64,000 nucleotides of DNA from Apostichopus japonicus (taxonomy: Eukaryota; Echinodermata; Holothuroidea; Aspidochirotida; Stichopodidae), in contig NC_092567.1 of assembly GCF_037975245.1 (NCBI RefSeq), positions 20,678,376-20,742,375 on the forward strand. Reading direction: 5' to 3'. The first letter of the stretch is position 1. Every line of letters begins with the position of its first letter. A program made the translations under genes and the position numbers. Shown in pieces: positions 237-45,578 of this stretch. The notes below the pieces were generated by a model. That model saw nothing but the letters and a program-made list of their open reading frames with translations, made no database searches and was not told the DNA's origin.

Positions 237-605
237 TTAAAGGGTGTTAAAAGACTCGCGCACAAAGGAACGTCTCATGCCGGTAATCTGACCTAGTTTC
301 GAATGAGGTGTAACAGAAGTGTTAGACACCACCATCGATCCCAGAAAATACATACACAGCTTGCTACCGTCGGTAATTAGACACTAGTGTACAGTCAATA
401 TACATGCAGCGTCGGTCAATACCCACAACACAGTGTGCATAGCAGCGATGGACATCTCAGGTCCAGCTAAAACATAACAAGGTATCACGTTTCATTACTG
501 TCTGCATTTTGTAGCAACAAGAGAAAACCTACACTTGCAAGCAACGGAAAGTTAACTTTTTCAGAGCGCGACACGAAGATTGGGGAGAGTCTTCAATGCC
601 TTTAA
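237..605. mobile_element. TTAA-flanked MITE, copy 1
   Basis: A 369-bp element bounded by TTAA at both ends. Imperfect terminal inverted repeats read AGGGTGTTAAAAGACTC at the left and the complement of GAGTCTTCAATGCCT at the right. Two closely similar copies lie inside the paired hAT elements at 8529-8891 and 13503-13865, which fixes its borders. A TTAA target duplication is typical of piggyBac-type movement, but no transposase is encoded, so the superfamily is inference. Confidence 0.75.
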
Positions 606-1600
606 GTATTCCCAACGTTCCTGTCTTTTATCCCGTCTTTTGTTATCCTTCTAATTCACCGAGTCTGGTTTCTTAGAGATGTGGGCGTATGGTGGGGTGC
701 CGGCGGGTGAGGTGGGTGGGTGGGTCTACTTTGCTTCATTAGCTTGTCAGTTCTTACCTCACACTATTCTCTTTTTCTTGCTCTCCAGTTGACTTCTATT
801 CCAACAAGTCATTCTTTGTTAAACTTTGTTAATATATTCTCCTTCAACAACTATATTGTCACTGTTTATATGTCCGGCTATACTCCGTTTGTAAATTAAA
901 TGCCTATCTCATATTAATTTCTGTTAACATTGGTGTTCTCAATATATGAGGTTTTAACCTCGTTGTATAAAATGCTTGGTTATTATGATTGACTGATTCA
1001 TTGATCGATTGAAATCAAATTGAATGACTATAAATTGAATTGATTACATAGTACGCGTACAAATTCGATTGATCGATTAAGTTTGGGATACAGTTACAGA
1101 CATTTGTTATTACAACCTGTATAATGTAATCATCTTTGGCGATTCCTTCATTGAGAGTTATGTATTTCTTATAGTGTGACAGTCTGTTCAGTCTGTTTAC
1201 TTGTGCTGATTACAAGACTAATTTGCATATATCATCGCGAGTATAAAGTTATATCTGATGTAGCTCATAAAATACCAGGTGGCCTAGGTGCGGTTAGACT
1301 GCAGTTCAACACACTTTCTGATGTGGAAGTGTGCCAAGATCTTTCGCACTTATTTTTTTTTTCTTCTAAATTTATTTCAATTTGGCAGATTTTCCCTCAC
1401 ACTCATTCGTGTCAATAGCTGATGTTGGTATATATCATATCCAGGCTTAAAAGAAATCTATATCTGTATATTCATGAACATTGTCAATTACTGTAGACAA
1501 CAGTATACAGGCAAAGTTACTTCTACAAAATGGCCATCGAAGGTTTCAACAGAAACAAACATACACTATAGAGCGAACTAACTACACACAAGGATGACAC
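606..1600. other. intergenic, no gene seen
   Basis: AT-rich DNA with short direct repeats of TTGATTGA-type words near 985-1080. Small open frames here have no splice sites or recognisable protein similarity. Nothing is supported. Confidence 0.6.
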
Positions 1601-6070: not shown

Positions 6071-6240
6071 AGGCCTGGGAAGTGTCATTTCCAGCGATCT
6101 GGGAGACCAAAATTTGCTTGTACGCTTCGCGCTAACAAATGGTCCTGGGTAGTGCCATTTCCAGCGATCTGGGAGGCATTTTCGGCCAAAATTTTCTTGT
6201 ACGCTTCGCGCCAACCTATGGTGGCGCTACGCTTAGATAA
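6071..6240. repeat. two tandem copies of the ~100-bp CGATCTGGGAG module
   Basis: Each copy has the order TCATTTCC-GCGATCTGGGAG, then TACGCTTCGCGC, with the second copy continuing CAACCTATGGTGGCGCT and CTTAGATA. The same module recurs at about 6857-6962, 16045-16145, 21470-21566, 22090-22192 and 22255-22352, and reversed near 26664-26760, inside otherwise different elements. Confidence 0.7.
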
Positions 6241-8528
6241 TTTGCCTACAGGCTTCGCCCCTCCCTTGGCAAATTCCTCGCTACGCGCCTGTTCGAATTT
6301 GTAACGCAAACAGCAGATATCACATCATATCAATGAGCATGAAAATGGCGTTCCAGGATGAAAAGCCTCAAAACTGTCCGACTTGCCTGAAAAAATAACC
6401 AAAAATTTTCGCGTGCTTAGCGCGCGTTCAACGTGTTCATGTCAATATCATATAAGCAAGCATCGGTTATTACATCGCATGCCATCATGTACCGTACGGT
6501 CCGTTCAAATTGCGCAGTATTTCGCGGGATGCTAATGTAAACAACGACATGTCTCATGTAGATGTATAAAAAGCATGGAGGTCCAATTATGTAAAAACTC
6601 TCTTTTACATTAGTAATGGCGAATTAGGGGCTGCACCCCCGCCGCGCAGTGGCGGAGCGTCCATACGGTCGGGGGGTGGATGCCCCCCCTGACGGACTCA
6701 AATGGACTGCTGGCGCCTTTTCAGCTCTTTACCACTTTTTACTTATTCTAGATTATTAACTTTTTTATTGCGCTCTCATCTACTTATTGACATTTGTCAC
6801 ATTTTGTTGGTGTAATTTGGCGATGACACCTTATTCTTCGTTTATCTGCAAATTAGCCAGGCCCGGAAAGGGTCATTTCCGGCGATCTAGGGAGTATCTT
6901 TATTCAAAAATTTTCTGTACGCTACGCGCCAACCAGTGGTGGCGCTCCGCTTAGATAGTGTCCAGAGCCGTATATAGAGAGAGTTTGGCCAACCATGTAA
7001 CCGATTTGGATTGGTCGAGAGGGAAAACGCCCACACAGGGTGGTAAAATAGGTCCACTTGAACACTTTATAGCAGACGACACGCATACTCACAGTGTATA
7101 GACTATCGTTTTGTACACGAAAAAAGTACGAAATTATGAAAGAAATGGTGCTGGGGATGCTGCAATCGGTCAGAACATGGATATTGTTGTTCGATTATCC
7201 GACTGACCATAAAAGAAGAGGAATTTTTTGGAAGTAGAAAGAACAAGATGGAGATCTAATGAAAAAAAGTCTGTGTAGCCTAGGCCCATACTAGCCATAG
7301 GCCCTAGTGTAATACGAGTAATGTACAAGCAATGCGAGAATTTTACGTTCAGACTGGTTTCTGTAATTACATGAATGGCTATTCTCTCTCGTTTTACGAT
7401 CCACAAATTCGATTTCATTATGCCAGCTCTCCTAATCATAGGCATGGCAGTTTCAGTCGCACATATAGTTATCCTAATTCCTAGTTATTGCATGCCTAGG
7501 CTATGCCTAGCCTAAAAAAGTATCACTTTTAGTTCTATGTAAAAGGGTGGGCTAGCCTCTAGGCATCACGTAAAGCCCTAATCCTTAGTTAAGCCCGAAG
7601 CATAAGTTAAGCCTGGGCTTAGTTAGACCTGGACCATTCTTGCTATTACTACAACTGTTATAGCACATTACATAATATGGCACAGTATAAGGCCCAATTA
7701 AACTAGGTCTAAGGAAAACAAAGTAGCCTAGGCCTAAACTAGTTAGGCTAGGTCTATACTCATTGGCAACTTGTGGGTTGTGTACACATACAGGCCTAAT
7801 TATATAGACCCTTTTAGTATGTCATAAACAAGTGCCCAAATGGTTAAATGATCTTGGTTTGTGTTAATTGTCAGCATTGGCCTAGCCTTTTTAGGCTAAC
7901 ATGAATTCAGCCTAATTTTTTCTTCTTCAAAAGTATAGCCTAGGCCTTGGTTTAATTTGGATGCAGTCAACTATCATTTATCAAAGTTGCATCAGTACCT
8001 CCTTATTCCCTTAATTGACACCCACATTGACGATTGAAGTTAAAAAAAACCTTTTTAAATTATCTTTAGACAGTAAATTTTAACTCCCTGAATTTCAGGA
8101 CTTTTTTTACAAATCAAAGGTGACATGTGCTCTGAAGAAAAACTCCTAACATAAAAAGCCACAGTTAGCAGACTGTGATAATGACAAACCTGGTGAGTGA
8201 CTTCTAGACTGAAATCCAGTTCCTGCAACCACAGCAATAAAGTCTTTGTTTTAATCAATGCACTTGTGTGTTTGAAACTTTCAAATGGACACTCAATGGC
8301 AGTTGGTTAAGATATAAGGTTTTACCTTCATCATGGAGAGTCGAAGGGAATCTGCCTCATCATCTGAATAATGGACTCAAGGATAGCAACAAATCATGAT
8401 TGGATAATGATTTTGAGCAAGTAAATATCTGGCAATTTGAAAGTTTGTATTATTTTTTTACATATTATTTAAGCTGTTTAGCTCACACACAAGCAAATGA
8501 TCAAGTGACAACAACCGATGCAGTATAT

Positions 8529-8891
8529 TTAAAGGTATTGAAGACTTGCCCTAAACCGCATGCCGCGCTCTGAAAAAGTTTACTTTCCGTTGCTTGCAAG
8601 TGAAGTTTTTTTTGTGTCGCTACAAAATGCAGACAGTAATGAAACCCGATACCTTGTTATCTTTTATCTAGACCTGAGATGTCCACGCTGCTATGTGCAC
8701 TGTGTTGTGGGTATTGACAGTGATGTTTGTATTGACTGTACACTAATGTCTATTTACAGATGGTAGCAAGCTGTATGTGTATTTTCTGGGATCAATGGTG
8801 GTGTCTAACACTTCTGTTACACCGCATTCGAATCTAGGTCAGATAACCGGCATGAGACGTTTCTTTGTGCGGGAGTCTCCACACCCTTTAA
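8529..8891. mobile_element. TTAA-flanked MITE, copy 2 (inside E1)
   Basis: 363 bp bounded by TTAA, reverse-complement orientation relative to copy 1. It occupies the corresponding place in E2, so it was present before E1 and E2 diverged. Confidence 0.8.
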
Positions 8892-9040
8892 GGAGAAGTA
8901 TTTATATCCCATTAATAGAGAAAGAATTATGTTTCAATTGGTAGCATGCAACTTAAAATTTTGCAAACATTAGATACAATCAAACAATAACAAGGTTCAT
9001 TTACAAGGTAATCTACTGCCCTTTATTTCACATTAGTCTG

Positions 9041-9420
9041 TCACATCAGAAGGTCACAGCTTTCAATAATTATACAAACAAATTCCCTTGATGGGTGCTT
9101 CGTTAGTTTCCTGCAATTTTCAAGTTTATCAATGTAATAAGTTCTGAATGTGGCAATGTGGAGAAGCTTTGGGATAATCTGTGGATAAGACTGCCAGACT
9201 ATCAACAAGATTCCACATCCATGCAACTCCAACTGCTTCCTTCACCTCCTTGCAGATGTACCACATGTCCAAAAAAAAGTCAGCATTGGTTAATGTAATT
9301 AAAAGCTGGCTTCCTCCTGAGCTGGCAAATACACATGAATTGTCAAGTACAGAGGTCAGTGTGAAACCACTGAGAGATCTTCTCAGCTTTCAAGAAAACA
9401 AAGACTTGAAGCCAAATTGA
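9041..9420. pseudogene. possible coding remnant in E1
   Basis: The 63-codon frame at 9041-9232 (minus) and the 79-codon frame at 9181-9420 (plus) are both kept open in E2 with only two residue changes each, but overlap on opposite strands, so at most one is real. An AATAAA lies shortly after the stop of the minus frame, which favours the minus strand as the 3' end of a transcript. I do not recognise either protein. It may be a worn transposase or captured host exon. Confidence 0.2.
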
Positions 9421-11189
9421 CAGAGGCCACACTGATACCATTCCACTCTCATAAGATGAAGGTATCACACACACTTCATTTTGCTTCTGCGATGCAGTGC
9501 CTGGTAGACTGTGAGGGTCACCCAATGGATGTTTTAACAACTGCCTGGTTTATAGAGCTCTACAACAGATAATTCATCCTAATGTCTAGTCGTTATCCTG
9601 TCATGGCCTTGAGCAAGTTGAACCCACTTCAACACAAAGCAGCTATTGAATTCTTGTCTAGGTACTGTCAAATCCACATCACCATCATTGCTGGTTCCAG
9701 CTTCGCTGACCATGATAAAAGAGTACAATGAGGGTTTTTTACTTCACCCAACAGAGCTTGCATTCCAGTACCATTGGGCAGCTGAAAAGATATTCAGAAA
9801 TTGTTATATATGAGTGTGTTTGTATGCATGCATATGCGTGATTTTCTTGCTTTACAGAACAGCTCCATTTTGATAAGCTACGTAACGTGTAAACCTGCCA
9901 ATCATATGTTTGAAATAGGACACGCTGAAACGATTCTTAAATGAAAAGCTTAACGACTTCATGCATTTTTATACATCACTGTTCAGGTAAGGCCAGTAAG
10001 GGCAGTATGAAGAATAAGTAACAATTAATAATTATCATTATGGCCATTTGCTGTCTGCATAAAAACAAACTGAATGATGTCATCAGCCCTATGCTCAGTT
10101 GACAACACTGACAAGTAGGCACACTATGTCAGTGTGATCCATGAAACCTCATTAAGGACATGACCGTATAGTATATATGTTAATGGAAAATACATAAGCT
10201 ACAACATACACCAGTATTCAGTTGTTGCAGGTTTTTTTTTTCTCGACAGACCCATTCAATCTGTTGCACCTACTATAGCCTAGTACTACATTCCTGAGAA
10301 ATTAACACCACAATATCAGTCTTAGGTTTGCCCACAGACTCCCAACTATTGCTAACTCCTACACTCAAGTATATAGTTTAGTTTAGTAGAAAAAATGACC
10401 AGGAGAGACATTCAAGTCCCCATTAAGGACCCTAAGGCTATATGAGAGGAATAAAACCGAGGACATCAAATGTCATACCCAATTACAATGCTTAATGTAC
10501 TCATCCAAAGTATTCTTAAACCCATACACACTACTTGCAATTCAACCTTCTCAGGCAAACCATTCAATCCATCCAGTATAAGTTGTATTAGACTTTAGAG
10601 AAAAAGTTATGCCGAATATTAATCCTACTATGTAGCTTCTGGAGTTTAATACAATGACCTCTGGTACAACTACTTTTTGGCAAACCTGAAAGATCAGTGA
10701 AGCATAAATTGTCATTTTATGTGTAGGCCTACTTTATTTAATTGAAGGATCTATTAATGTAGGCCTGATGCTATAGTTTTGCGTCTGTAATCTAGCCTAG
10801 CCAGGACTGTGATGTGTGCTTTTCGTTTGTATGACTAAAGTAGGACTAGTAGTATGAGGCGTAAAATAAAACAAGTGTAATGACAGGTTTTCAGCTACTT
10901 TTCTATGCATTTCAGGTGTGAAGATAAACGTAAATGTTATTAACTAACGCATACTCTAATTCATTACCTGATATCCATTTTGTTCCTCGTATGCCTGTCA
11001 AAATCTGACATTCTGAGTCGCTTCGTTTGTTCGCAACGAGCACAGTGTGCAAAGCTGCTATATATTGTGTGTGGTGTTTTTCGTGTTTCGCGCAACTGGT
11101 AACGACAACTGGACCTATTTTGATGCCCATGGTTTGCGTGTGACGTCACAAATCGCCAGTTGGCCAAACTCTCTCTATATACGGCTCTG

Positions 11190-11197
11190 ATAGTGTC
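11190..11197. repeat. shared central target duplication ATAGTGTC
   Basis: The only sequence between E1 and E2. The same octamer lies at 6955-6962 and 15433-15440, giving three copies around two elements. Confidence 0.95.
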
Positions 11198-13161
11198 CAG
11201 AGCCGTATATAGAGAGAGTTTGGCCAACTGGCGATTTGTGACGTCACACGCAAACCATGGGCATCAAAATAGGTCCAGTTGTCGTTACCAGTTGCGCGAA
11301 ACACGAAAAACACCACACACATTATATAGCAGCTTTGCACACTGTGCTCGTTGCGAACAAACGAAGCGACTCAGAATGTCAGATTTTGACAGGCATACGA
11401 GGAACAAAATGGATATCAGGTAATGAATTAGAGTATGCGTTAGTTAATGACATTTACGTTTATCTTCACACCTGAAATGCATAGAAAACTAGCTGAAAAC
11501 CTGTCATTACACTTGTTTTATTTTACGCCTCATACTACTAGTCCTACTTTAGTCATACAAACGAAAAGCACACATCACAGTCCTGGCTAGGCTAGATTAC
11601 AGACGCACAACTATAGCATCAGGCCTACATTAATAGATCCTTCAATTAAATAAAGTAGGCCTACACATAAAATGACAATTTATGCTTCACTGATCTTTTC
11701 AGGTTTGCCAAAAAGTAGTTGTACCAGAGGTCATTGTATTAAACTCCAGAAGTTACATAGTAGGATTAATATTCGGCATAACTTTTTCTCTAAAGTCTAA
11801 TACAACTTATACAAGGGTTGTGAATGGATGGAATGGTTTGCCTGAGAAGGTTGAATTGCAAGTAGTGTGAATGGGTTTAAGAATACTTTGGATGAGTACA
11901 TTAAGCATTGTAATTGGGTATGACATTTGATGTCCTCGGTTTTATTCCTCTCATATAGCCTTAGGGTCCTTAATGGGGACTTGAATGTCTCTCCTGGTCT
12001 TTTTTTCTACTAAACTAAACTATATACTTGAGTGTAGGAGTTAGCAATAGTTGGGAGACTGTGGGCAAACCTAAGACTGATATTGTGGTGTTAATTTCTC
12101 AGGAATGTAGTACTAGGCTATAGTAGGTGCAACAGATTGAATGGGTCTGTCGAGAAAAAAAAACCTGCAACAACTGAATACTGGTGTATGTTGTAGCTTA
12201 TGTATTTTCCATTAACATATATACTATACTGTCATGTCCTTAATAAGGTTTCATGGATCACACTGACATAGTGTGCCTACTTGTCAGTGTTGTCAACTGA
12301 GCACAGGGCTGATGACATCATTCAGTTTGTTATTATGCAGACAGCAAATGGCCATAATGATAATTATTAATTGTTACTTATTCTTCATACTGCCCTTACT
12401 GGCCTTACCTGAACAGTGATGTATAAAAATGCAAGAAGTCGTTAAGCTTTTCATTTAAGAATCGTTTCAGCCTGTCCTATTTCAAACATATGATTGGCAG
12501 GTTTCCACGTTACATAGCTTATCAAAATGGAGCTGTTCTGTAAAGCAAGAAAATCACACATATGCATGCATACAAACACACTCATATATAACAATTTCTG
12601 AATATCTTTTCAGCTGCCCAAAGGTACTGGAATGCAAGCTCTGTTGGGTGAATTAAAAAACCCTCATTGTACTCTTTTATCATGGTCAGCGTAGCTGGAA
12701 CCAGCAATGATGGTGATGTGGATTTGACAGTACCTAGACAAGAATTCAATAGCTGCTTTGTGTTGAAGTGGGTTCAACTTGCTCAAGGCCATGACAGGAT
12801 GACGACTAGACATTAGGATGAATTATCTGTTGCAGAGCTCTATAAACCAGGCAGTTGTTAAAACATCCATTGGGTGACCCTCACAGTCTACCAGGCACTG
12901 CATCGCAGAAGCAAAATAAATTTGTGTGATACCTTCATCTTATGAGAGTGGAATGGTATCAGTGTGGCCTCTGTCAATTTGGCTTCAAGTCTTTGTTTTC
13001 TTGAAAGCTGAGAAGATCTTTCAGTGGTTTCACACTGACCTCTGTACTTGACAATTCATGTGTATTTGCCAGCTCAGGAGGAAGCCAGATTTTAATTACA
13101 TTAACCAATGCTGACTTTTTTTTGGACATGTGGTACATCTGCAAGGAGGTGAAGGAAGCAG

Positions 13162-13373
13162 TTGGAGTTGCATGGATGTGGAATCTTGTTGATAGTCTGG
13201 CAGTCTTATCCACAGATTATCCCAAAGCTTCTCCACATTGCCACATTCAGAACTTATTACATTGATAAACTTGAAAATTGCAGGAATCTAACAAAGCACC
13301 CATCAAGGGAATTTGTTTGTATAATTATTGAAAACTGTGACCTTCTGATGTGACAGACTAATGTGAAATAAAG
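13162..13373 (+). pseudogene. possible 3' coding remnant in E2 with AATAAA
   Basis: A 63-codon frame (13162-13353) beginning MELHGCGILL is followed within about 20 bases by AATAAA. Its counterpart in E1 is 9041-9232. Another frame here reads KEVKEAVGVAWMWNLVDSLA before a stop, so the reading frame is uncertain. Not recognised. Confidence 0.2.
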
Positions 13374-13502
13374 GGCAGTAGATTACCTTGTAAATGAACC
13401 TTGTTATTGTTTGATTGTATCTAATGTTTGCAAAATTTTAAGTTGCATGCTACCAATTGAAACATAAATCTTTCTCTATTAATGGGATATAAATACTTCT
13501 CC

Positions 13503-13865
13503 TTAAAGGGTGTGGAGACTCCCGCACAAAGAAACGTCTCATGCCGGTTATCTGACCTAGTTTCGAATGCGGTGTAACAGAAGTGTTAGACACCACCATT
13601 GATCCCAGAAAATACACATACAGCTTGCTACCATCTGTAAATAGACATTAGTGTACAGTCAATACAAACATCACAGTCAATACCCACAACACAGTGCACA
13701 TAGCAGCGTGGACATCTCAGGTCTAGATATAAGATAACAAGGTATCAGGTTTCATTACTGTCTGCATTTTGTAGCGACACAAAAAAAACTTCACTTGCAA
13801 GCAACGGAAAGTAAACTTTTTCAGAGCGCGGCATGCGGTTTAGGGCAAGTCTTCAATACCTTTAA
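13503..13865. mobile_element. TTAA-flanked MITE, copy 3 (inside E2)
   Basis: Same element as at 237-605 and in the same orientation, bounded by TTAA, in the position corresponding to copy 2 in E1. Confidence 0.8.
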
Positions 13866-16185
13866 ATATACTACATCGGTTGTTGTCACTTGATCATTTG
13901 CTTGTGTGTGAGCTAAACAGCTTAAATAATATGTAAAAAAATAATACAAACTTTCAAATTGCCAGATATTTACTTGCTCAAAATCATTATCCAATCATGA
14001 TTTGTTGCTATCCTTGAGTCCATTATTCAGATGATGAGGCAGATTCCCTTCAACTCTCCATGATGAAGGTAAAACCTTATATCTTAACCAACTGCCATTG
14101 AGTGTCCATTTGAAAGTTTCAAACACACAAGTGCATTGATTAAAACAAAGACTTTATTGCTGTGGTTGCAGGAACTGGATTTCAGTCTAGTAGTCACTCA
14201 CCAGGTTTGTCATTATCACAGTCTGCTAACTGTGGCTTTTTTTGTTAGGAGTTTTTCTTCAGAGCACATGTCACCTTTGATTTGTAAAAAAAAGTCCTGA
14301 AATTCAGGGAGTTAAAATTTACTGTCTAAAGATAATTTAAAAAGATTTTTTTTAACTTCAATCGTCAATGTGGGTGTCAATTAAGGGATAAGGAGGTACT
14401 GATGCAACTTTGATAAATGATAGTTGACTGCATCCAAATTAAACCAAGGCCTAGGCTATACTTTTGAAGAAGAAAAAATTAGGCTGAATTCATGTTAGCC
14501 TAAAAAGGCTAGGCCAATGCTGACAATTAACACAAACCAAGATCATTTAACCATTTGGGCACTTGTTTATGGCATACTAAAAGGGTCTATATAATTAGGC
14601 CTGTATGTGTACACAACCCACAAGTTGCCAATGAGTATAGACCTAGCCTAACTAGTTTAGGCCTAGGCTACTTTGTTTTCCTTAGACCTAGTTTAATTGG
14701 GCCTTATACTGTGTTATATTATGTAATGTGCTATAACAGTTGTAGTAATAGCAAGAATGGTCCAGGTCTAACTAAGCCCAGGCTTAACTTATGCTTCGGG
14801 CTTAACTAAGGATTAGGGCTTTACGTGATGCCTAGAGGCTAGCCCACCCTTTAACATTAAACTAAAAGTGATACTTTTTTAGGCTAGGCATAGCCTAGGC
14901 ATACAATAACTAGGAATTAGGATAACTATATGTGCGACTGAAACTGCCATGCCTATGATTAGGAGAGCTGGCATAATGAAATCGAATTTGTGGATCGTAA
15001 AACGAGAGAGAATAGCCATGCATGTAATTACAGAAACCAGTCTGAACGTAAAATTCTCGCATTGCTTGTACATTACTCGTATTACACTAGGGCCTATGGC
15101 TAGTATGGGCCTAGGCTACACAGACTTTTTTTTCATTAGATCTCCATCTTGTTCTTTCTACTTCCAAAAATTCCTCTTCTTTTATGGTCAGTCGGATAAT
15201 CAAACAACAATATCCATGTTCTGACCGATTGCAGCATCCCCAGCACCATTTCTTTCATAATTTCGTACTTTTTTCGTGTACACAAACGATAGTCTATACA
15301 CTGTGAGTATGCGTGTCGTCTGCTATAAAGTTTTCAAGTGGACCTATTTTACCACCCTGTGTGGGCGTTTTCCCTCTCGACCAATCCAAATCGGTTACAT
15401 GGTTGGCCAAACTCTCTCTATATACGGCTCTGATAGTGTCGAAAGCGCTCCTACAGACCATTCTCGCCACTCCTGACCAATACCCCTAGCTCCGCCACTG
15501 CCGCCGCGCCTCCTACGCCTGTGTGTAGTGTTCGGTTGAAGGAAATATCTGCTATTTTTTCATTTTCTTCAACCAAGTTTTATAATAGCCGTTATAAGAG
15601 GTTTTAATGTTTGTACACCAATATATGAACTGTGTCTGAATTTTCGAAAATTTCTGACCAACATTCTGCATCACACTTCCCTCTACTCGTGCAATTTTGA
15701 CCGGTCTGTTAGGGGTTCAAGGAAGTTTTTCTATATTGGTTGTCCATAGATGAAATTTTGTACAACATTTAGGGTATGTTTTCAAGTGAGTTTATTCACG
15801 AGAAATGTGAATTTTCAAATTCTGAACAAATATGGGGCTTAAAACCTTGAAAAGTGGGGCTGACGGGTATTGTGGGCCGCGACGTAGAATCACCTACAAA
15901 AGCAAAGACCCACAGGAGATGCCATCAGGTCGAACATGATGTGTGCCGGGTTGACAAACTTCAAAAAGGTTATGGATGGAAAAAAAAAACTATTAGGAAA
16001 TACCTGGTTCTCAGGCAAAAAGTGTACATCTGGTTGGTCATTTCAAGCCCGAGAAGTGCCATTTCCGGTGATCTGGGGGGGTTTCAAAACAAGAAATTTT
16101 CTTGTACGCTGCGCGCCAACCGATGGTGGCGCTCCGCTTAGATAGTAATTCGCGCCCCCCGGGTTTGAAAATCCTGGATACGCGC

Positions 16186-18817: not shown

Positions 18818-20480
18818 ACTTAAAAAACGCTTTTCTCAAGACAAAAGTGGCATTCTACGAAGTTTAAGCCTTTTAAATTGATATGAAATGATATCAATAT
18901 ATAATATAAAAATGTTATATATCCATAAAAATCGAATGACTTAAGTACTCTTTTTAGCTCAAATCTAATCAAAAGGGCTCCATCGATCGTATGTATGATT
19001 TTGGGAAGAATTAAAAAAGTCGTCATTTTAGCCCAAAAGTAACAATATCATAAGGAATTGTCCATTTTGAGCTAAAAAAGAATGTTTTTGAAATAATGTC
19101 AGGATGTAGACCACGGATTCCCAGCACTCAGAAAACGCTACTTTCAAGACTAAAGTGGCATTCTACGAAGTTTAAGCCTTTGAAATTGATAGCAATATAT
19201 AATATGAAAATATTATATTTTCATAAAAATCGAGTGAATTTAGTACTATTTACATCTCGAATCTAATCAAAAGGGCGCCATCGATCGTATCTATGATTTT
19301 GGGAATGATTAAAATAGTCGTCATTTTGGCCAAAATTTCACAAAATCATAAGAGGATAGCCTTACAAAATTGTCCATTTTGGGCCAAAAATGAATGTTTT
19401 CAAAATAATGTCAGGATGTAGACCACGGATTCCCAGCACTCAGAAGACGCTACTCTCGAGACAAAAGTGGCATTCTACGAAGTTTAAGCCTTTTAAAATT
19501 GATATGAAATGATAACAATATATAATATGAAAATGTTATATTTTCATAAAAATCGAATGACTTAAGTACTATTTACATCTCGAATCTAATCAAAAGGGCG
19601 CCATCGATCGCATGTATGATTTTGGGAAGAATTAAAAAAGTCGTCATTTTGGCCAAAAATTAACAAAATCATAAGGGTATAGCCTTACAAAATTGTCCAT
19701 TTTGGGCCCAAAATGAATGTTTTCAAAATAATGTCAGGATGTAGACCACGGATTCCCAGCACTCAGAAAACGCTACTCTCGAGACAAAAGTGGCATTCTA
19801 CGAAGTTTAAGCCTTTTAAAATTGATATGAAATGATAACAATATATAATATGAAAATGTTATATTTTCATAAAAATCGAATGACTTAAGTACTATTTACA
19901 TCTCGAATCTAATCAAAAGGGCGCCATCGATCGTATCTATGATTTTGGGAAGGATTAAAAAAGTCGTCATTTTGGCCAAAATTTCACAAAATCATAAGAG
20001 TATAGCCTTACAAAATTGTCCATTTTGGGCCAAAAATGAATGTTTTCAAAATAATGTCAGGATGTAGACCACGGATTCCCAGCACTCAGAAGACGCTACT
20101 CTCGAGACAAAAGTGGCATTCTACGAAGTTTAAGCCTTTTAAAATTGATATGAAATGATAACAATATATAATATGAAAATGTTATATTTTCATAAAAATC
20201 GAATGACTTAAGTACTATTTACATCTCGAATCTAATCAAAAGGGCGCCATCGATCGCATGTATGATTTTGGGAAGAATTAAAAAAGTCTTCATTTTGGCC
20301 AAAAATTAACAAAATCATAAGGGTATTGCCTTACAAAATTGTCCATTTTGGGCCAAAAATGAATGTTTTCAAAATAATTTCAGAATGTAGACCACGGATT
20401 CCCAGCACTCAGGAAACGCTACTCTCAAGACAAAAGTGGCATTCTTCGAAGTTTAAGCCTTTCAAATTGATATGAAATGA
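18818..20480. repeat. tandem satellite array, left part
   Basis: Monomers of about 312-324 bp. The landmark GTAGACCACGGATTCCCAGC starts at 19106, 19418, 19741, 20064 and 20388. Each carries GGCATTCTACGAAGTTTAAG, GCGCCATCGATCG and AATGAATGTTTTCAAAATAA. Adjacent monomers alternate between two variants (see findings). The array is interrupted by a hAT at 20481 and resumes at 22428. Confidence 0.95.
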
Positions 20481-22828: not shown

Positions 22829-24897
22829 TAGTTCAATCAGTGACTTTTGGTAGCAGCCTGCAAATTTAGCATTTCTCTTGGGGATTTCCGTGCAGTATAG
22901 AATACCTGGCCATTATCAAAAACGGGAACTCTTTGCTTAATGGAACTTCACATTACAGAAAGTAAATTTACTGATTTTGTGTGTATAGTTCCTTCCTATG
23001 CTGAGACAAAACGGATTAAATTAATGAATTTGATTTGATAAATCGATAGAGTAAATTGCTTTCGATTATGCAATTGGAAGCTTGTTGACAGTTGTTATCA
23101 GTGTTAACTGATCAAAATGAAGTCAAATGATAAAAAAAAAACAGAGTGTTATGTGTTTGTTTTAAAGGAAAAACACATGTGTATGTTTTAGGCCGATTCT
23201 TAGCCCCGTTTAATACTTATTATATGCCTAATGCTTTCTAGTCAATACACAATCTTGTAAAAGAGGGCGCTCGATGCTTTTTAAAGAACTCAAATTATCT
23301 TCGAACAAGATTCTCTGAAACATTTCAGGTACTGATTTTCGTGGCAATGTCAACAACATGATTGGGGTTATTTGCGAAAAGGGTAATACGAAGAAACAAA
23401 CAAGTCGTTAACAAATGTTTGCCTAGTATGTATTAAATTTAGACTTCGGAAGAGTTGGAAACTTTGCAAACACAAGACGCCAATCTGCGTGAAGACCGTT
23501 CGAGATATCCCTCACACTGCTAGACAAATATAAGCTAACTTCAGTGTGTAAACAAAATAGCAGAGGTAAAACCAAAGCCTATTACTTATTTTGAACCTTC
23601 AAATGTTCATATAAAACGATTTTTTTTCTCGTTCAAATGGTCAAAAGGCCGACAACTTATTTTCAGAACCAGTTGATCATGTTATGATTTCCCCCTTTTT
23701 TTCTAGTTTGTTGTGTTGTTCGAGTGCGCGACCAATAAGCGAAATATAATCCAATCATATGCAAGTATAGTTATTGTGACGTCACATATAAATTGTATAT
23801 TCATTAATTACAGATATCGTGTAGAAATACCCTCGCATATAGAAGTGGTAATACAATCATATATAGTAAGTACATACGTATATAAACAATTTATTTTATA
23901 TCTACATATCTTTCAAAATATTATCATATTTGGGGGCCTTCTGGTTTTATGTTTTATGCGCCCACCCACCTTTAAGGAAGAAAATAAAGACTACCACCCC
24001 TTAAAAAAAACTACAACTTACCCCCGCCCCCTCCCCTACCTCCCTCCCACTGGTTGGTACGTCAGTGACTTGTCATGAGGAACAAAAACAGCATATTCTA
24101 CAGACTAAGACCATTTTAAAATTGTGATAAATTGATCATGCAGTCACCGGCTAATCAACTCAAATAAAATCATTAAGAATTTGTAATGAATCATTTGGAT
24201 AAAAAAGTTACAATCAAATCCCATAAAAAGCGATATTTTGCTTTCAGAAAGAACTTGGCATTATTTTATTCTGTGAAAGCCATCCAATGTTTAGACATCA
24301 TAACTGGGTATACCCTTCAGTTCAGATAAAAAATGTAAATGTAAAACAATAAAATTAAAAGTACTGATTTTCGTGGTTAATGTCAATAACATGATCCACG
24401 ACACATAAATAAAACACATACATATTTTGATTGTCATAGCAATCCATTCTAAACCAATCTACTTTGATGTCGTGTGTTAAGCTATGCTAAAATTTGTGAG
24501 TGAATCAATGAATGCACTAGCCCGGGTTCGGATCCGGACTCGAGTCCAATTCTTTCGTGACTCGGACCTGGCTCGGACGTCTTCGGAATCGGCACCACCC
24601 GAACTCGAAGGCCGAGTCCATAATAACACACATGACTACAATTACGAATGAAAACAAATTTATCATCTTGTATTACTGTAATTTGTACCAACAGCTGAAT
24701 TATTTGGTGCACATATATGTCTGATTAAAAGTCTTAAAATTCCCTGCAATGTTCTTTTTCTGAACTTTAGACTGGAAAACATAAATCTAGATGAAACAGA
24801 CTTGAAACGACACAGGATAGACACACTGAATGTCTTGCTATAGTTATTTTTGTACCTTTGTAGGTCTACACACTGATGTTTCATTACGAAGTTTAAC
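22829..24897. other. non-coding part of duplication A
   Basis: Nearly identical to 42180-44010. The stretch 23300-23530 matches 42665-42895 almost base for base. Copy A alone has about 175 bp at 24455-24629 containing CGGATCCGGACTCGAGTCC, probably a small insertion. No gene seen. Confidence 0.6.
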
Positions 24898-24898
24898 T

Positions 24899-25520
24899 TT
24901 ATTCATCCCATAGACTTTCGCTTTGGTCTGGCTGAGTTGCAAAAGCGTCACAGAATGAGGGATGCCACCAATTCAAAAGGGATACACAGATCACCGGCTC
25001 CAGGACCACCACCGTGTAATTCTCTTTGCTACTTCGCTTCTTGAGGTGGTAGTTTCTCACAAATTCCAATTTCAGTTGATTATAACACATACCTTGCCCG
25101 ACGCTCAAGGACATGGAAGCCAGCTGCAGTCCCATAATTTTCTCGCAAGAAAAATGCTGGAAGCCTGGGCACGTCACTTTCAATATGGTCTCGTCCTTGT
25201 TGGGATTCGCCCAGAGGGACGGCGATCTAATCAGGCTGTTCCGTAGATTCTGTTCCTGTGCCGCCGGAAGATGCTGAAATTTTATGAAGTGGTGGAAGTG
25301 GTTGTCGACGGAACCATGAGAGCAAGAGTACAGGCACTTGGACCCTATCAGGCTGCAAGATTCGAGTTCAGAGTCTAACATCACGATGTGATTTCTGTCC
25401 TTGAATGGTGGGTAGAGGTGATAGAGGGCGCTAATCACCCTCGACTGAAGGCCCTCCTGGGTGTCTGCTATATAGTCGGGATAGAGATGGCCCGGCAGGG
25501 ATACCTCCTCTCTGAACCAT
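24899..25520 (-). CDS. TMEM183: TMEM183 copy A, exon 6 and stop
   Basis: 206 codons and TAA after a strong polypyrimidine acceptor (TTTTTCACAG). Starts WFREEVSLPGHL, contains LYHLYPPFKDRN and ends LLNWWHPSFCDAFATQPD... WDE. AATAAA on the minus strand (24898-24903) overlaps the stop, implying a very short 3' untranslated region if used. Confidence 0.9.
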
Positions 25521-28500
25521 CTGTGAAAAAAAAAGAAATAAAAAAACGAATCAAGAAACATGCCATCAAAGGGGGTGCTTACAAAACTTGCAGCTTTTTT
25601 TTAACAAGCCAAATATTGCATGAAAATTCCCAACCCTACCACTTTCAGGGTTGTATTGAAAATGTATCGAACTTGAGCGTAATCCCAGGCCACACGGTAC
25701 GCAAAGAACTGTGACTTCTTCTGACTGGCACCCCCAGCAAGGAAATAGCTATATAGGCATGGCCATCAACTAAGGGCTGGGGTGGGCAACCTAGGGCCAC
25801 ATGCGGCCCACCAGTGATTTTTTTGCGGCCTGTGAGATGTCTCAAGATAAAGAAAAAAAATCAATCTATTTTACATCATCACAAAAAACCAGCTAGCTGC
25901 TTAGAATTTATGGGCACTAATGATGCTGTCAGGTAGGCTATTATCCCCATTAATGATCAACTGTACTGTATTGACATTATGTGTTTTTGAATACAGATTA
26001 GGTACACAAACCTATTTATTGCTTGAAAGTCATCAGAATCAAAGGTTTGAAATCAACAGCAGGTCATTGGTTAGGTGCGGCCCGGTCAATTTATAACTCC
26101 TTACAGTATATCTGGCGATTCATTCAAAAAGGTTGCCCACCACTGAATTACGGGCTAGATGGCTTAGTCGGTGTAACACTGGGCTTTTAACCCGGAGGGT
26201 CGATGGCTCAAATCCTTGCTCTGGTCATAATTTTTTTTTGATCTTTTCCATTGCCTTAAATTTCCAAGTCAGTTTTTTTCTATTATTCATTTACTTATTA
26301 AATGGAAAAGAAAAACACAGAAAGAAGGAAAGAAAGAAAGAAAAGGGACCACAAATTTGACTGAATGTCAAACACCTGCTTGGATTCCTTTGATACTTTT
26401 TAAATGTCAAGATGCAAAGATTAAATGATGGAATATACAAAACAGATCTCCCCCGGTGACATTTGATGGGTTAAATTTTAAGTTTTGAATGATCTGAAAA
26501 GAGAAGGGACAAGGACGACACACTATGCACGTAGATAGGTGATAATTAGCCTTGGAAAAAAATGACTCAAAGAGAAAGAAACAAAGTGAAGCCAAAGAAA
26601 TAGTAATCTACAGCTGCATTCGCTTAGTTATTAAATTTGGGGGGGCCCGTGAGCAGGTGATGACTATCTAAGCGGAGCGCCACCACAGGTTGCCGCAAAG
26701 GAAAAATTTTCGTCTGGCAGACCCCTCAGATTGCAGGAAACGGCCTTTATGGCAGTAAGCAACACACCTAAAATTGATAAAAATTTCTGGCAATTTTTTA
26801 TTTTGGGAAATATTCTCGAAGGAAGTGATCGCCATTTATTCCTCAGTTTACCAATTCCTCGTCTCCCAGAAGCGCCCAAAATTTAAGAAATCGAAACATT
26901 TTTGTGTTGGCTGATCCATGATCGCCGCCCATGCCCGTGAGAAGCGGTGACTGGGTAAAGAAAAAGCTATGCCGTTTGAAAACATGGGCAGAAAAAGCGA
27001 AAGTAGCGAAACCTAAGGTAAAACGTGCGATAACAAAGTGATTATTTTCCAGGTTAATTGTGACTGTATTTGAAATGATTATTATTATTCGTTTTTTTCA
27101 AAACTACCTATCAGATCATGAGGAAAATTTATCCTGGTGGACCTTTTAGCGAACTGATTGCATTGCTTAAGAAGAAGTTCACATGGAGTCCCATAATCTC
27201 TGTTCAGGCTTGGGGTAATCGTAATCGATTACAATCGATTACATTTTTTTAAGTAATCGTAATCGTAATTGATTACTTTTGTGAAAATTACAAAGTAATC
27301 GTAATCGATTACAAGGGCAAAGTAATCGTAATCGTATTACATTTATGATTACAGTGAAATTTGAATGAGAAGGGCAAAATTAGTAGAAATGATTAAAACT
27401 AATTCTTACCATTGGCTTTTAGTGTGACCAAAGAAGTGTTCCTGCTTCTAGAATTCTCTAGCACAATAAACTTATACTAAGAAGTACTGGGGATTTGATC
27501 GCCATATTCAAGGATTTTTTATCACCTGAATTATTCTGTTCAATGCTGCCTCTCAGCGTTCACAATCCTTTTGCATACACAACTGGTTGTCTGTTTAATT
27601 GTCTGTTTAAATTGTATTTTTTACTGGACTTATGGGTTACACATCTTAAACGTGTTAAGGCATAAATGTGTAATGCCTGGTAGGAATTGTAGATATACTT
27701 CCACAATTTTGTCTGTATATACTGTAAATGCCCTTCCTTTGCCCTATTTCATTGCCCTTTTTCCCGGGATAGTTATATTAAACAGATATGCAGAGGATTG
27801 TGCAAGTAACCACAATGTAATCCATGATTGTAATTACGATTACATTACCTGTACAATGTAATCGTAATCGATTACTTCAACTTTAGGCTGTAATCATAAT
27901 CGTAATAATACATTCTCAAGTAATCGTAATCGATTACATTCAGATGTTATCGCCCCAAGCCTGTCTCTGTTCACTACATTTATCTTAACTTTCCGAACTT
28001 TGTTACAGGCTTAGAAAACAATTAAAAAATTTGCCATTTTTTCATGGAAAATTGACTGACTTTGGCAAAGGTAACAGGTTGCACTTACTCTGGGACTACG
28101 TATATATAATATTGTTCAACAATGGCAGCGTTGATGGCACATTTGGTTCATTAGTTATCAACCAGTTATTATTTAACTGTTTCGATTGACTGAATACCAA
28201 CAATTAACAACCATTGACCAAGCAGTCAACAGAAGCCCCATTTCTCGTAGGCCCTACAAGAAATTCAGTTGCTGACACTGTTTGAAAACACTTTTTTTTT
28301 TAAATTATGACATTTTATGACACCTTTGACAAAATTTGGGGGGGCCTGTGCCCCCCGGGCCCAAATGGGCACGACGCCACAGGTTATTCTACGTTAAGAC
28401 ATTAAATTGGTTTGCTGACCTCTTGTAACGCCTCATCCAAAATCCGACCGAGTTGGTGACATGAAAGGTGTCCTTACAGACAGCCGAGTAGCGGCCGACA

Positions 28501-31500
28501 TCTTCCGGATGGATAAAATCAGCTGAAATCAGCAACAGTTGGAGGAAATGATCCCTCCCTTGCGGCTCAGCATCTCTTTGGTTACAACCGTTGCCATTTT
28601 GACCTTCCGAGTGTAATAATAAGTAATACTAAAAAAATTAACATGGTTTTTATTAGCATGGAAAGGAAAATTTAATAAAATAAGAAAAAAAAAGGAATTT
28701 TTTGGCCAGCAATGTGACTAATATCATTACAATAATGACATTTCTGAATGTTTTAAGTATATGTAAGGTGACGTGATGGTAGTTATTTTGTACGTTTACC
28801 GTTCATAATAAATCAAGATATATCGACAAGAAAGGATCGATTTTATACTGTACTATGCATCATATTGTTTTGATTCCAAGCATCTACACAGCTCTGAGAT
28901 ACAGTGAAACATTTTTATCATTTTCTCAATTTCATATTCTAGAGCGTGTGCATTTTGCAAGTGTGGTGCAATCCAGGGTTTGCTGTGGTAATTAATTACA
29001 GAGACGGCCGCCTCGCCGAAAAAATTGTCTTGATTACCGCATCACACTGTTTTTTGTTGTCATGTTAACAATTCTGGAATCCCTTAATACATTGCTTGAC
29101 AATTATTTTTAAAAAGTAGTAGCCCGTCTGGCTTTTTCGTCCTGAGATTTTGGTAGCCCCGGAAACAATTTGAGAAAGCCCGTGAAAAATTTGTGAACAT
29201 TGTCATATCTTTCTCAAACTTTACGCCACCAGGCGGAGTAGAAAGTTGGCAAGTTTGAATGTCGGTGATACGATGGGCTTTTGGGCCATTAAGGTTGGTA
29301 ACCCCAATACAGTGATAAGGACCCCGAGTGAATAGGACTTTATTTTGGTGGAGTGGATGGGTCTCTGCCAACCCTGCACTGTGTCACCTAGAATAGTAAA
29401 GGTCAAAATTATTACTTAGCAGGGGGCAGGACATTAAACTAAATAATCCTGTTTTGGATGTGTAGTGAGTCTAGGCCACAGACAGTAACGCATATTTAAA
29501 TACATCACAGGTAGTAAATTCACCTTCTGTGCTTTTCAACCTCCATCATGCAAAATTCCGAAAAGGGTACCATAATTACTAGGCATAATTAATTTAATAA
29601 ATAAAAAATCAGATAACCTAGGTTGGAAGGGGGTCCACAAACAATATTGGATGTACTTTCAAAAGTTTCAGTCACAGTACTAGTGCAGATATCTAAGAAA
29701 TATCTTTTCCCCAACATTTCCATTCAAAACAGCTCTTCATTCTAATGTCCATAATTTTCTAAAATCCCAGAGCTTCAGGTGTTTTGTCCCCCTGGGCCCC
29801 TACTGGGACATTGCCCGTAGACCACACCAGGCCCCATAAGGCTGACCCCTTGACTCGCCACCAGGGTTGAAGTGCGAAGCGCTCCAATGGCGAAAGATAA
29901 TATAAGATAATATGTGAGAGGAAGTTATCACTATTTTAATCTATTTTTTGAGATAATAATTTAGAGTTAATGCAGAGTGTTTGTGAAACAAGCTCTCCTA
30001 TACATGGGCGTCGGAGCCCAATTTGATTGGGGAGGCTGTAACGATTTCCCCGAAAATGTAACCAATATGGAAGTGGGTACTGATGAGATCCTCCTCATTT
30101 TTGAAATTCGAATTGGTTATAAGGAATGCCAACAGTCAAATATATTGACATGTCTTGGACAGAGAAAGAATGTATGGAGTGCAAACTGTGCCAAAACTCC
30201 ACAACATCAATGTCAGATTAGTCGGGCAAGCATAATTAGAACGTCGAGTCTAATTTTCTGAGGCTGAGGGTTTACGAATTAATGTCATCAAAGAAGATTG
30301 CAGTTTAGTTTTTTATGCAAGACTCGCAACAATATCATGTTGTTTCGAATTTTTAAGAAAATATCTTGTTGGGGGAGGGGGGTTGGAGGTGGTTGGGAGA
30401 TACATTCATGTTCCGCCTCCCTACGCCTGTGTTTCTATGTATACGAAGATACATCTTTGAACTGACAGCATATTTTGCATAACATTTTTGACATGCTGTC
30501 TACAGTACCAGATAAAAATATTCCTTGCATATATTAGCGAGCTCTATATTTCACAATATTTTGGCAACATTTGTGTAATTATCCTCTCACAGGTCAGATA
30601 ATGGGAAACAGCCTCTGCTGATAACTGAAACGTTTTGCTTTCATTCACTACTTCAGGTGTGGTAGTTTGAAGCTTCCCTTATTGTTGACGGATATGCCCT
30701 CATCTACAGTATTTCCAGCGGAATATATTTATGACTATATAATGTGGGTGGAATGAGATTTTATCTGAGAGTTTTCCGCAAAAATGATACCAAGTGTGCG
30801 GTCCCTGACCTTATCCCAGTGGAAGATGGTTCAATTTCCTGTTTTCTCTACTTTTTTTAAATTTTATGTCATATGCTGCATTTTGAGTTTGGTTTTGCTA
30901 TATAATACCTTTATTGGCCAAATTGAAGTTTCTGCTTTCAGCAGTTCAAATGCAAGACCTGTTTTAACATCGTGCATCGATTCCACTCACAGCAGGGTAT
31001 ACTCATAGATTCAGTATAAAATCTCTTGTGTTTGTCTGCCTTCACTTTGTACTGACCTGGGAATATTTGACTGTTTCTTTCAAACACTGGCAAACAACAA
31101 AGTCAATGCAATAACTGAACTTCACATTCTTAAATTTTTTTTTTAAATCTACTTTACCATATATCTGGTCATTCACAGATTGCAACTGCCCGTAGGAATC
31201 AACCTCAGAGTCCGACAGATCTCCGTCGTACCAATCCTCGTCATCTTCGTCCATCGACATGACATCCTCCGATCGCTCAGGAATTTCGTCCACCGCTACG
31301 AGGAAAAGTAGAAGAAAGTCAGTCACCTTGAGAGCAGTCAACAAATATACAAATAGATCTACTTAATGCAATATTAGGCCTTGTAAACTTGTTTTTGTTG
31401 GAGGGGGAGGGTAAGGAGGGGCGGGTGGTGGTGGTGCAAAACTATTCATTCAACCGGTGGGAGACAAATCCAAGAGGTAGTCCATAAATTTTACCAGCAG

Positions 31501-42176: not shown

Positions 42177-44641
42177 AAAGTTACTTCAATCAGTAACCTT
42201 TACGTATAGCAGCCTGCAAATTTAGCACTTCTCTTTGGGATTTCCGTGCAGTATCGAATAACCTGGCCATTATCAAAAACGGAAACTCTTTGCCTAATGG
42301 AACTTCACATTACAGAAAGTTGATTTACTAATTTTGTGTGTATAGTTCTTTCCTATGCTGAGACAAAACGGCTTAAATTAATGAAATTGATTTTAGAAAT
42401 CATTAGAGGAAATTGCTTTCGATTATGCAATTGGACTCTTGTTGACAGTCCTTATTAGTATAAACTGATCAAATAAAGTCAAATGATAAAAAAAACAGAG
42501 TGTTATGTTACTTTTAAAGGAAAAACACATGTGTATGTTTTAGGCCGATCCTTAGCCCCGTTTAATTCTTATTATATGCCTAATGCTGCTAGTCATTACA
42601 CAATCTTGTAAAAGAGGGCGCTCGATGCTTTTTAAAGAACTCAAATTATCTTCGAACAAGATTCTCTGAAACATTTCAGGTACTGATTTTCGTGGCAATG
42701 TCAACAACATGATTGGGGTTATTTGCGAAAAGGGTAATACGAAGAAACAAACAAGTCGTTAACAAATGTTTGCCTAGTATGTATTAAATTTAGACTTCGG
42801 AAGAGTTGGAAACTTTGCAAACACAAGACGCCAATCTGCGTGAAGACCGTTCGAGATATCCCTCACACTGCTAGACAAATATAAGCTAACTTCAGTGTGT
42901 AAACAAAATAGCAGAGGTAAAACCAAAGCCTATTATTTATTTTGAACCTTTAAATGTTCATATAAAACGATTTTTTCTCTCGTTCAATTGGTCAAAACGC
43001 CGACAACTTATTTTCAGAACCAGTTGATCATGTTATGATTTCCCCCTTTTTTCTAGTTTGTGTGTTGTTCGAGTGCGCGACCAATAAGCGAAATATAATC
43101 CAATCATATGCAAGTATAGTTATTGTGACGTCACATATATATTGTATATTCATTAATCACAGATATCGTGTAGAAATACCCTCGCATATAGAAGTGGTAA
43201 TACAATCATATGTAGTAAGTATACATACGTATATAAAGAATTTATTTTATATTTACATATCTTTCAAATTATTATCATATTTGGGGGCCTTCTGGTTTTA
43301 TGTTTTATGCGCCCAGCCCCCTTTAAGGAAGAAAATAAAAACTACCACCCCTTAAAAAAAACTACAACTTACCCCCGCCCCCTCCCCTACCTCCCTCCCA
43401 CTGGTTGGTACGTCACTGACTTGTCATGAGGAACAAAAACAGCATATTCTACAGACTAAGACCGTTTAAAAATTGTGATAAATTGATCATGCAGTCACCG
43501 GCTAATCAACTCAAAATAAAATCAGTAAGATTTTGTAATGAATCATTTGGATAAAATAGTTACAATCAAATCCCATGAAAAGCGATATTTTGCTTTCAGA
43601 AAGAACTTGGCATTATTTTTTTCAAATGTTCAGACAACATAACTGTGTATACTCCTCAGTTCAGATAAAAATGTAAATGTGAAACAATAATTAAAAGTAC
43701 TGATTTTCGTGGTTAATGTCAATAACTTGATCCACGATACATACATAAAACACTTACATATTTTGATCGTCATAGCTATCCATTCTAAAACACATGACTT
43801 CAATGACGAATGAAAACAAATTGATCATGTTGTACTACTGTAATTTGTACCACAGCTTAATTATTTGGTGCACATATATGTCTGCTTACAAGTCTTAACT
43901 TTTCCTGCCATGTTCTTTTCTGAACTTTAGACTGGAAAGCATAAATCTATATGAAACAGACTTGAACGACACAGTAGAATGTTATGTTATTGTTATTTTT
44001 GTACCTTTGTAGGTCTACACACTGAAGATGCTGATAAGGGGTTCATGCAACAATGGTTACGTTGACAGAATGTATCGTAAATGTTTATAGACCGTATAGG
44101 TCCCTCTTCCAACCACTTCACCCTTTGCCTGGATGCCTGATTCTCATTCCCTACCCACCAACCCCCTCCCCCCCACCCCTTCTCCATTCTTGTACGTGGA
44201 GTGCCAAAATATCATTTGATTGTTGTTGTATGATGCAAATAACAATGTGCTAATAAAGTATTCAAAATGAATAGGAATACAAATGCAGAGAACTTTAATT
44301 GATTTTAGGTGACAACTTGAGAATACTTGGAGAATTCTTGCAAAACGGTTCTTCTTGACATTTGATGCATGCAAACATTGATAGACAGAAAAGTATATAT
44401 TTCTGTTGGACTTATTACACAAAGGACTATAGTAGATGTAATTTGTATGAAAACAATATTTTTTAACCAATATCAGATGATGGCAGTAAACGTGTATTGT
44501 GACAGCTACACTAAAGAAAATTAGCCGACCGAGTAGCAGTACTGCCCATAGATAAACGGTCAGCAAAACTATGGGCCTTGACTCAAAAAGTAGGCCTCAA
44601 ACATTTCTTGGTGGTAAGCAAAATTTTTCATATTCCAGAAA

Positions 44642-44688
<47 letters not shown>

Positions 44689-44932
44689 TATATATGATTT
44701 GCACATTATAAAGAAAATACAATACTCTCTTCATTTTTTTTGGCAGTTGAATTGCAATGATGACATCATTCACTTTCACTGCTGTTGCCAGATGCATTAT
44801 CACAAAATATCACCAAATTTGAAGAAAAAAATAAAATAAAATATCTGCAAACAAATTGCTGATGTTTTGGTTTTTAACTTCCAGTATAAAATCACCTTAA
44901 GCAATTAGACTATCCCATCACGGCACTAAACT
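42177..44932. other. non-coding part of duplication B
   Basis: Matches 22829-24897, then holds about 0.9 kb (44032-44920) not in A, including a (TA)n tract at 44645-44692. No gene seen. Confidence 0.55.
44645..44692. repeat. (TA)n microsatellite
   Basis: Near-pure TA, specific to copy B. Confidence 0.95.
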
Positions 44933-45578
44933 TTATACATCCCATAGACTTCCGCCAGTCGACGGAAACCCACTTCTTTGTCCTGACGGAGTCGCAAAAG
45001 TGTCACAGAATGCGGGATGCCACCAATTCAAAAGGGAAACACAGATTACCGGCTCCAGGACCACCACCGTGCGATTCTCTTTGCTACTTCGCCTCTTGAG
45101 GTGGAAGTTACTCACAAATTCCAATTTCAGTCGATTATAACACATATCGTGCCCGACGCTCAACGACATGGAAACCAGCTGCAGTCCCATAATTTCCTCG
45201 CAAGAAAAATGCTGGAAGCCCGGGCACGTCACTTTCAATATGGTCTCGCCCTCGTTGGGATTCGCCCAGAGGGACGGCGACCTGATCAGGCTGTTCCGTA
45301 GATTCTGTTCCTGTGCCAATGGCAGATGCCGAAATTTTATGAAGTGGTGAAAGTGATTGCCGGCGGATCCTTGAGAGCAAGAGTACAGGCACGTCGACCC
45401 TATCAGGCCGATAGATTCCACAAGTTCAAAGTCTAACATCCCGACGTGATTTCTGTCCTTGAATGGTGGGTAGAGGCGATAGAGGGCGCTAATCACTCTT
45501 GACCGAAGGCACCCCTGCGAGTGTTGTATATAGTAGGGATGGAGATGGCCCGGCAGGGATACCTTATCTCTCCACCAT
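44933..45578 (-). CDS. TMEM183: TMEM183 copy B, exon 6 and stop
   Basis: 214 codons and TAA after TTTTTTCACAG. Starts WWRDKVSLPGHL and ends in FPSTGGSLWDV. The AATAAA overlapping the stop in copy A is TATAAA here. Confidence 0.9.

Follow-up and report, generated by a model that had tools for sequence, protein, structure and literature searches.

How do two long and nearly identical transposable elements come to lie in mirror orientation on either side of a single octamer that also bounds the pair? The question is raised by a 64,000-nucleotide stretch of the Apostichopus japonicus genome (671.6 Mb in 35 contigs), hereafter the window, which spans C7:20678376-20742375 (contig and position). A first-pass annotation had placed element E1 at 6963-11189 and element E2 at 11198-15432 of the window. 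These coordinates are confirmed and the two elements are mutually inverted: the alignment of E1 with reverse-complemented E2 has 4173 identical positions out of 4239 (98.4%) with 16 gaps, and both bear perfect terminal inverted repeats (TIRs) of exactly 31 bp. The octamer ATAGTGTC was correctly reported at 6955, 11190 and 15433; it occurs nowhere else in the window, which has no reverse-complement copy of it. The 30-mer of the TIR (at most 3 mismatches) gives 4 matches in the window versus 0 in 100 shuffles. We favour the reading that E1 and E2 belong to a P-like, apparently non-autonomous family placed by an external motif, which inserts into an octamer, restores its site and stacks copies and excision remnants there (rough probability 0.8). 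The features of the locus, in window coordinates, are:

6200-6954, strand not assigned: repeat-derived sequence holding the target, extent approximate.
6938-6946, + strand: target motif GGTGGCGCT, separated from the left octamer by the 8-bp spacer below (from the motif logo and the genome-wide offset).
6947-6954, + strand: 8-bp spacer CCGCTTAG between motif and octamer.
6955-6962, + strand: target-site octamer ATAGTGTC, copy 1, motif-proximal.
6963-11189, + strand: element E1, 4227 bp, P-like, apparently non-autonomous.
6963-6993 and 11159-11189: 31-bp TIRs of E1, with end type L outside and R inside.
9207-9602, + strand: putative P-transposase-like stretch in E1, decayed and containing stops (PHP..DV.H..KMKV..T.F..SR.P).
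11190-11197, + strand: octamer ATAGTGTC, copy 2, at the junction.
11198-15432, - strand: element E2, 4235 bp, in the opposite orientation to E1.
11198-11228 and 15402-15432: 31-bp TIRs of E2.
12793-13188, - strand: the same putative decayed stretch in E2, placed by the alignment to E1, boundaries approximate.
15433-15440, + strand: octamer ATAGTGTC, copy 3, motif-distal.

This family inserts 8 bp away from GRKGGCGCT, a motif present on one side only. The trinucleotide GGC starts exactly 14 bp outside the target-site duplication (TSD) in 20 of 23 sites, any other single offset being found at most 3 times (binomial 3e-35, if the sites are independent). The logo of 34 sites reads GRKGGCGCT and ends 8 bp before the TSD, with G at -17 in 33 sites, G at -14 in 33, G at -13 in 34, C at -12 in 30, G at -11 in 32, C at -10 in 25 and T at -9 in 27; the motif side was taken to be whichever matched better, a choice that makes the logo look slightly too strong. 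Over 29 sites the other flank is flat, with no position above 0.24 bits. Leaving out 13 of the 34 sites, each a copy of a recognised repeat or of another site, gave the same logo from the other 21, some of which may sit in unrecognised repeats. A matrix built from 32 target sites scores 30 of them at 10.2-18.6 and two at 6.3 or less, and a scan inside E1 for a transposase binding site reached only 9.0 bits at best. Genome-wide, GGC-N19-CAGAGCCGTATAT is found in 405 places, remnants included, and its reversed control in none; a GGC-N20 control, using a shorter and looser TIR word, has 30 places, several of which keep the motif but have the octamer one base over. A gap between motif and element end that is wider by one base is seen for example in the insertions at C11:26285600 and C8:24995761. 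L and R ends face the motif equally, 10:10 in 20 single copies. The strict motif is present in 34,600 places versus 1,934 for the reversed pattern, a ratio that overstates the excess because the reversed pattern has one more CpG.

In the window the target sits in a dispersed repeat, GGCGCTNCGCTTAGATAGT, found in 12,219 places of the genome, whose octamer is ATAGTNNN, ATAGTGTC being one variant. Pieces of this repeat recur at window positions 16044, 20979, 21467, 22090, 22251 and 26663. The first-pass annotation had warned that an octamer belonging to a common repeat would undermine its double insertion; the target does lie in such a repeat, which accounts for the choice of target yet leaves the double insertion standing. 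An element end lies at the right spacing after the repeat in 189 of the 12,219 places (1.5%), some possibly inherited with the repeat. Among 100 occupied hot-spots listed, a second element end or remnant stands across the octamer at C6:12011412, C7:1551662, C7:2287297, the window and C12:26064833, and C3:5296069 holds a double remnant; a second unit is present at at least six of these 100, about four times single occupancy.

Same-family pairs parted by one octamer, proposed as a search in the annotation, recur throughout the genome. The 28-bp TIR end has 201 + 206 genome matches at up to 3 mismatches. A junction pattern in which eight free bases part 12-bp pieces of the two ends was found in 112 places with at most 3 mismatches, excision remnants included, and its reversed control in none. 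A stricter pattern, with 17 bp of one end and at most 1 mismatch, gave 79 strand matches, corresponding to 25 junctions seen from both strands and 29 from one. Among the 25 two-sided 8-bp junctions, 10 have long element ends on both sides (read over ~1.5 kb each way, window included), 8 further ones have 19 bp of TIR on both sides, and in 2 the partner carries a variant end. Two pairs of junctions make triplets with one common octamer, CTATTTAC at C14:10606722 and 10610922, and TTCAGCAC at C11:19668052 and 19671506, the C11:19668052 junction being one of five recognised by the 17-bp TIR pattern only. The orientation is mixed, since 11 junction loci (ten two-sided, one one-sided) comprise 5 R-R, 3 L-L and 3 R-L. 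Across the octamer from this family, a related family with end CAGAGCCTTATATAGAGAGAGTTGCGACAACTC is found in L083 (C7:2282990-2283100) and L084 (C11:27029820-27029960), at junctions C7:2283059 and C11:27029872, showing that different families share an octamer. The 25 two-sided junctions do not agree with a random octamer being reused by chance, and the earlier view that exact retargeting is rare by chance gives way before them and before an octamer standing at a fixed distance from a motif.

Three equal octamers are found in 7 of the 9 doublets with both outer flanks read, and the octamer agrees on the flank read in 6 more doublets with one outer flank read. In the other two, D3 (C3:3641669) and D4 (C3:9796575), the inner octamer reads as the reverse complement of its outer counterparts. 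Each of these doublets is an inverted pair; recombination between the two arms would flip the centre of such a pair, which suggests this origin for the flipped octamers. The loci concerned are L025, L027 and L034 (C3:3641669-3654055) and L036, L066 and L067 (C3:9796575-9804963).

The following order of events is proposed. The transposition complex would be placed by the one-sided GRKGGCGCT and would insert into the octamer past the 8-bp spacer, the motif thus acting as the cause of the placement. The motif itself lies outside the duplication. Since the octamer is duplicated, motif, spacer and octamer would be restored on the motif side and motif-N8-octamer would persist there after each insertion, so that octamer reuse is expected rather than improbable. 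A later, unrelated copy could then enter the same octamer in either orientation, giving element-octamer-element chains, and excision would leave up to 17-18 nt of each TIR between octamers, so that remnants would stack too. In the window, E1 adjoins the motif at 6938-6946 and by geometry should be the later arrival; E2 would have come first and E1 second. Private differences, 4 of 2888 positions in E1 and 7 of 2900 in E2, agree weakly with this order.

Several observations weigh against this interpretation. Its prediction that the motif-proximal member is the younger, judged by terminal branch length, fits 4 of 10 doublets (the window, L033 and L040, with L032 mixed) and fails in 6 (L034, L036, L038, L039, L042, L045), so the order of arrival is not established. 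When the doublets were split afterwards, 4 of the 5 same-end unflipped ones fit, as do 0 of 3 direct ones, in which different ends were compared, and 0 of 2 flipped ones. The motif by itself does not account for how often sites are used: the 405 ends at the offset, set against 34,600 strict motif sites, amount to ~1% occupancy; together with the frequent second units, this low occupancy implies that some sites are more attractive or that the element attracts itself. L062 is without a clear motif, and the motifs of L058 and L059 are weakened. The five junctions recognised by the 17-bp TIR pattern only could each be a long remnant. Finally, no autonomous copy with the E1/E2 TIRs was found among the family ends listed.

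The alternative that survives best is self-targeting, in which the transposase would prefer an octamer flanked by its own TIR ends, and copies already in place would draw in new ones whatever the motif. It draws on the second units, whose frequency at the listed hot-spots exceeds about fourfold what the single occupancy of 189/12,219 predicts, and on the dating, which does not favour motif-proximal entry. However, uneven accessibility of the sites would yield the same excess, 14 doublets resemble single insertions in having the motif (weak in D2) on one of their outer sides at the fixed offset, and the flank opposite the motif has no TIR-like preference in the 29 sites. We regard self-targeting as rather unlikely.

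Movement or copying of the whole doublet as a single composite is very improbable. The loci at C16:17.53 and 17.71 Mb have a common octamer and right flank, the result of a segmental duplication, and a few octamers recur among the junctions. A moved composite would, however, bring a new outer TSD, and the outer octamers match the inner one or its reverse complement in all 9 doublets with both flanks read; composite transposition is therefore rejected.

Aberrant or sister-chromatid transposition, in which one element copied itself inverted beside itself, had been offered in the annotation as one of two origins. Such reactions are known for Ac/Ds, and E1 and E2 are indeed near-identical inverted neighbours. 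Their descent speaks otherwise. Twenty full single copies, all with perfect 8-bp TSDs (20/20), were fetched for comparison. The closest to E1 among 21 other copies is L061 (99.7%), with E2 at 98.8% in that comparison, so that E1 and E2 are independent insertions and not sister copies. In none of the five same-end junctions whose alignment is clean (window, L032, L033, L036, L040) are the two members each other's nearest. L034, L037 and L038 were excluded from this count because foreign sequence disturbs their alignment; their members are likewise not mutual nearest. Direct pairs moreover make up 3 of the 11 junction loci. This explanation, which we reject, is highly improbable, and the annotation's other proposal, that a second copy entered the target duplication of the first, is supported. 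Most improbable of all, and likewise rejected, is a fold-back artefact, to which assemblies are at recognised risk in long palindromes, as E1 and E2 diverge by more than 1%, the sequences bordering the doublet on its two sides are mutually unrelated, and comparable junctions, some in direct orientation, are present elsewhere in the assembly.

The elements had been labelled hAT, which the excision remnants contradict. hAT excision footprints are not known to keep TIR sequence. The remnant pattern CAGAGCCG-N(2-19)-CGGCTCTG is found here in 355 places genome-wide, and its reversed control in none. Among 50 remnants listed of the 355, 8-18 nt of TIR are kept per side; the longest one-sided piece is 18 nt, found in 13, with none longer, in a pattern that permitted up to 27 nt on one side but not 18 on both. 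As the 18th base is common to the other end in 12 of these 13, the limit is 17 or 18. Flanking octamers were checked for a minority of the 355: among remnants read in their loci, the octamers on either side of four of the 22-nt form show 0, 1, 1 and 3 mismatches, and those around a 30-nt remnant show 2. At L027 (C3:3654055), an extra copy of the last 18 nt of the element end precedes the octamer, matching the remnant limit. Membership in hAT is thus rejected because the remnants keep TIR sequence, and no hAT family match was found in the six frames of E1 (Pfam, E up to 1), a search that a decayed domain could escape.

The family probably belongs to the P superfamily, where we file it because TIR remnants stopping at 17-18 nt are a mark of P-type cleavage. 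Drosophila P has 31-bp TIRs with 5' cleavage 17 bp inside them (PMC7776569), and the remnants listed here bear the trace of cleavage ~17 nt inside the TIR. An 8-bp TSD, as in the superfamily, is seen in the outer octamers, which match each other at all 29 of the 29 sites read on both sides, and the TIRs of E1 and E2 begin with CA, again as in the superfamily. A palindromic motif centred on the TSD, as in Drosophila P and Galileo, was not found at the target sites, whose signal is one-sided.

The decayed stretch listed in E1 and E2 may be a relic of a P transposase. E1 and other copies have weak matches (E of at least 0.5), at one collinear position, to three P-type proteins from this genome. 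A profile of these proteins scores 9.1 bits on L048, 8.1 on L052, 7.3 on L059, 6.7 on L047, 6.0 on E1 and 4.1 on L058, above all 300 E1 shuffles (best 3.7 bits), and 3.5 bits on E2, a value reached by 1 of 300 shuffles and weak on its own. It counts as supporting evidence only, given the E-values (0.04 to 1.9) and the only 7 copies tried, related to one another, some longer than E1; judged from sequence, the stretch agrees weakly with the P superfamily. Pfam gave no P-type match in six frames of E1 nor on six pieces, and a PDB search by sequence gave three matches (E 0.28-0.39), none P-type. The P-type RNaseH domain (PF21787) has 45 matches in the genome versus 0 in 14 control genomes, four of them in open frames of 764-789 amino acids; none of the 45 adjoins family ends among the matches listed, in which two end classes are not included. 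Examples lie at C17:17643182, C21:1210892 and C19:10287233, with no known TIR partner.

A CTCF-like factor and a THAP domain of the transposase are candidate readers of the motif, which is only a lead. The CTCF consensus is CCASYAGRKGGCRS, and the core of the target motif equals what we take to be the CTCF core. This presumed core, GRKGGCGCY, is present in the logos of both 34 and 21 sites, neither of which has a clear C preference at -23 and -22, where the upstream CC of CTCF sites would fall. The THAP1 site is TNNGGGCA, and T is found at -18 in 22 of the 34 target sites. A tentative possibility is that the transposase is tethered to a host chromatin factor at GRKGGCGCT, with its CTCF-like core, and inserts either way round at one fixed spacing, which would turn bound sites into self-renewing landing pads. 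These sites would then build chains of elements and remnants, even common to a related family.

Parts of this behaviour have precedents. The P elements of the Drosophila singed-weak allele are reportedly inverted and have a common 8-bp target. Singed-weak is a double P insertion (PMC7176646) in one allele, unlike the present pattern, which is genome-wide and includes triplets, piled-up remnants and a motif at a set distance. Multimers of transposons can arise by nested transposition or self-insertion (PMC4744444); the passages on them describe no placement by a motif at a set distance from the TSD, unlike here. The family resembles Drosophila P in its 8-bp TSD, 31-bp TIR and remnants, here of up to 17-18 nt (PMC7776569), and differs in its one-sided signal 8 bp outside the TSD, a palindromic target-site model being named in a reference title of the same source. 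Zebrafish Pdre2/THAP9 likewise has an 8-bp TSD, with TIRs beginning CA (PMC10983969). Unlike in both systems, no intact transposase with the E1/E2 TIRs was found. Galileo, a Drosophila member of the P superfamily, likewise combines a target-site motif with a TSD of 7 or 8 bp, but the motif is palindromic (15 bp) and the TIRs can reach kilobases (PMC4168063), unlike here. The double P insertion (PMC7176646) and a palindromic P-superfamily target motif (PMC4168063) are therefore already in print; what appears to be new is a one-sided motif set a constant distance beyond the TSD, together with genome-wide chains and stacked remnants, a combination absent from the titles and abstract starts listed. 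Neither a transposon at a fixed offset from a CTCF-like motif nor shared-octamer doublets were found in those titles and abstract starts.

Other features were seen in and beyond the window. An old internal fragment of the E1 family lies at 237-609 (- strand), 87% identical to E1 positions 1563-1929. Blocks at 22904-30865 and 42261-48940, in direct orientation and ~18-20 kb apart, form a large duplication in which several pieces are 82-100% identical. At 19056-20480 a 323-bp unit is repeated in tandem (4.4 copies), and a frame of 139 amino acids at 53104-53523 (+ strand) presumably resembles the end of a long interspersed nuclear element (LINE)-type reverse transcriptase. On C16, the segments 17.49-17.54 and 17.67-17.71 Mb are duplicated, with a doublet bearing octamer GTTTCCGT and a P-type frame ~30-40 kb away.

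If the proposed reading is true, this family is a eukaryotic cut-and-paste transposon placed to near base-pair precision by an external motif and not by its cut site. Exact double insertion then turns from a coincidence into an expected outcome, and the family would offer a natural system for guided placement. Its palindromic doublets can feed inversions, as the flipped inner octamer of two of them suggests, and its landing may be tied to a motif read by an architectural protein of the host.

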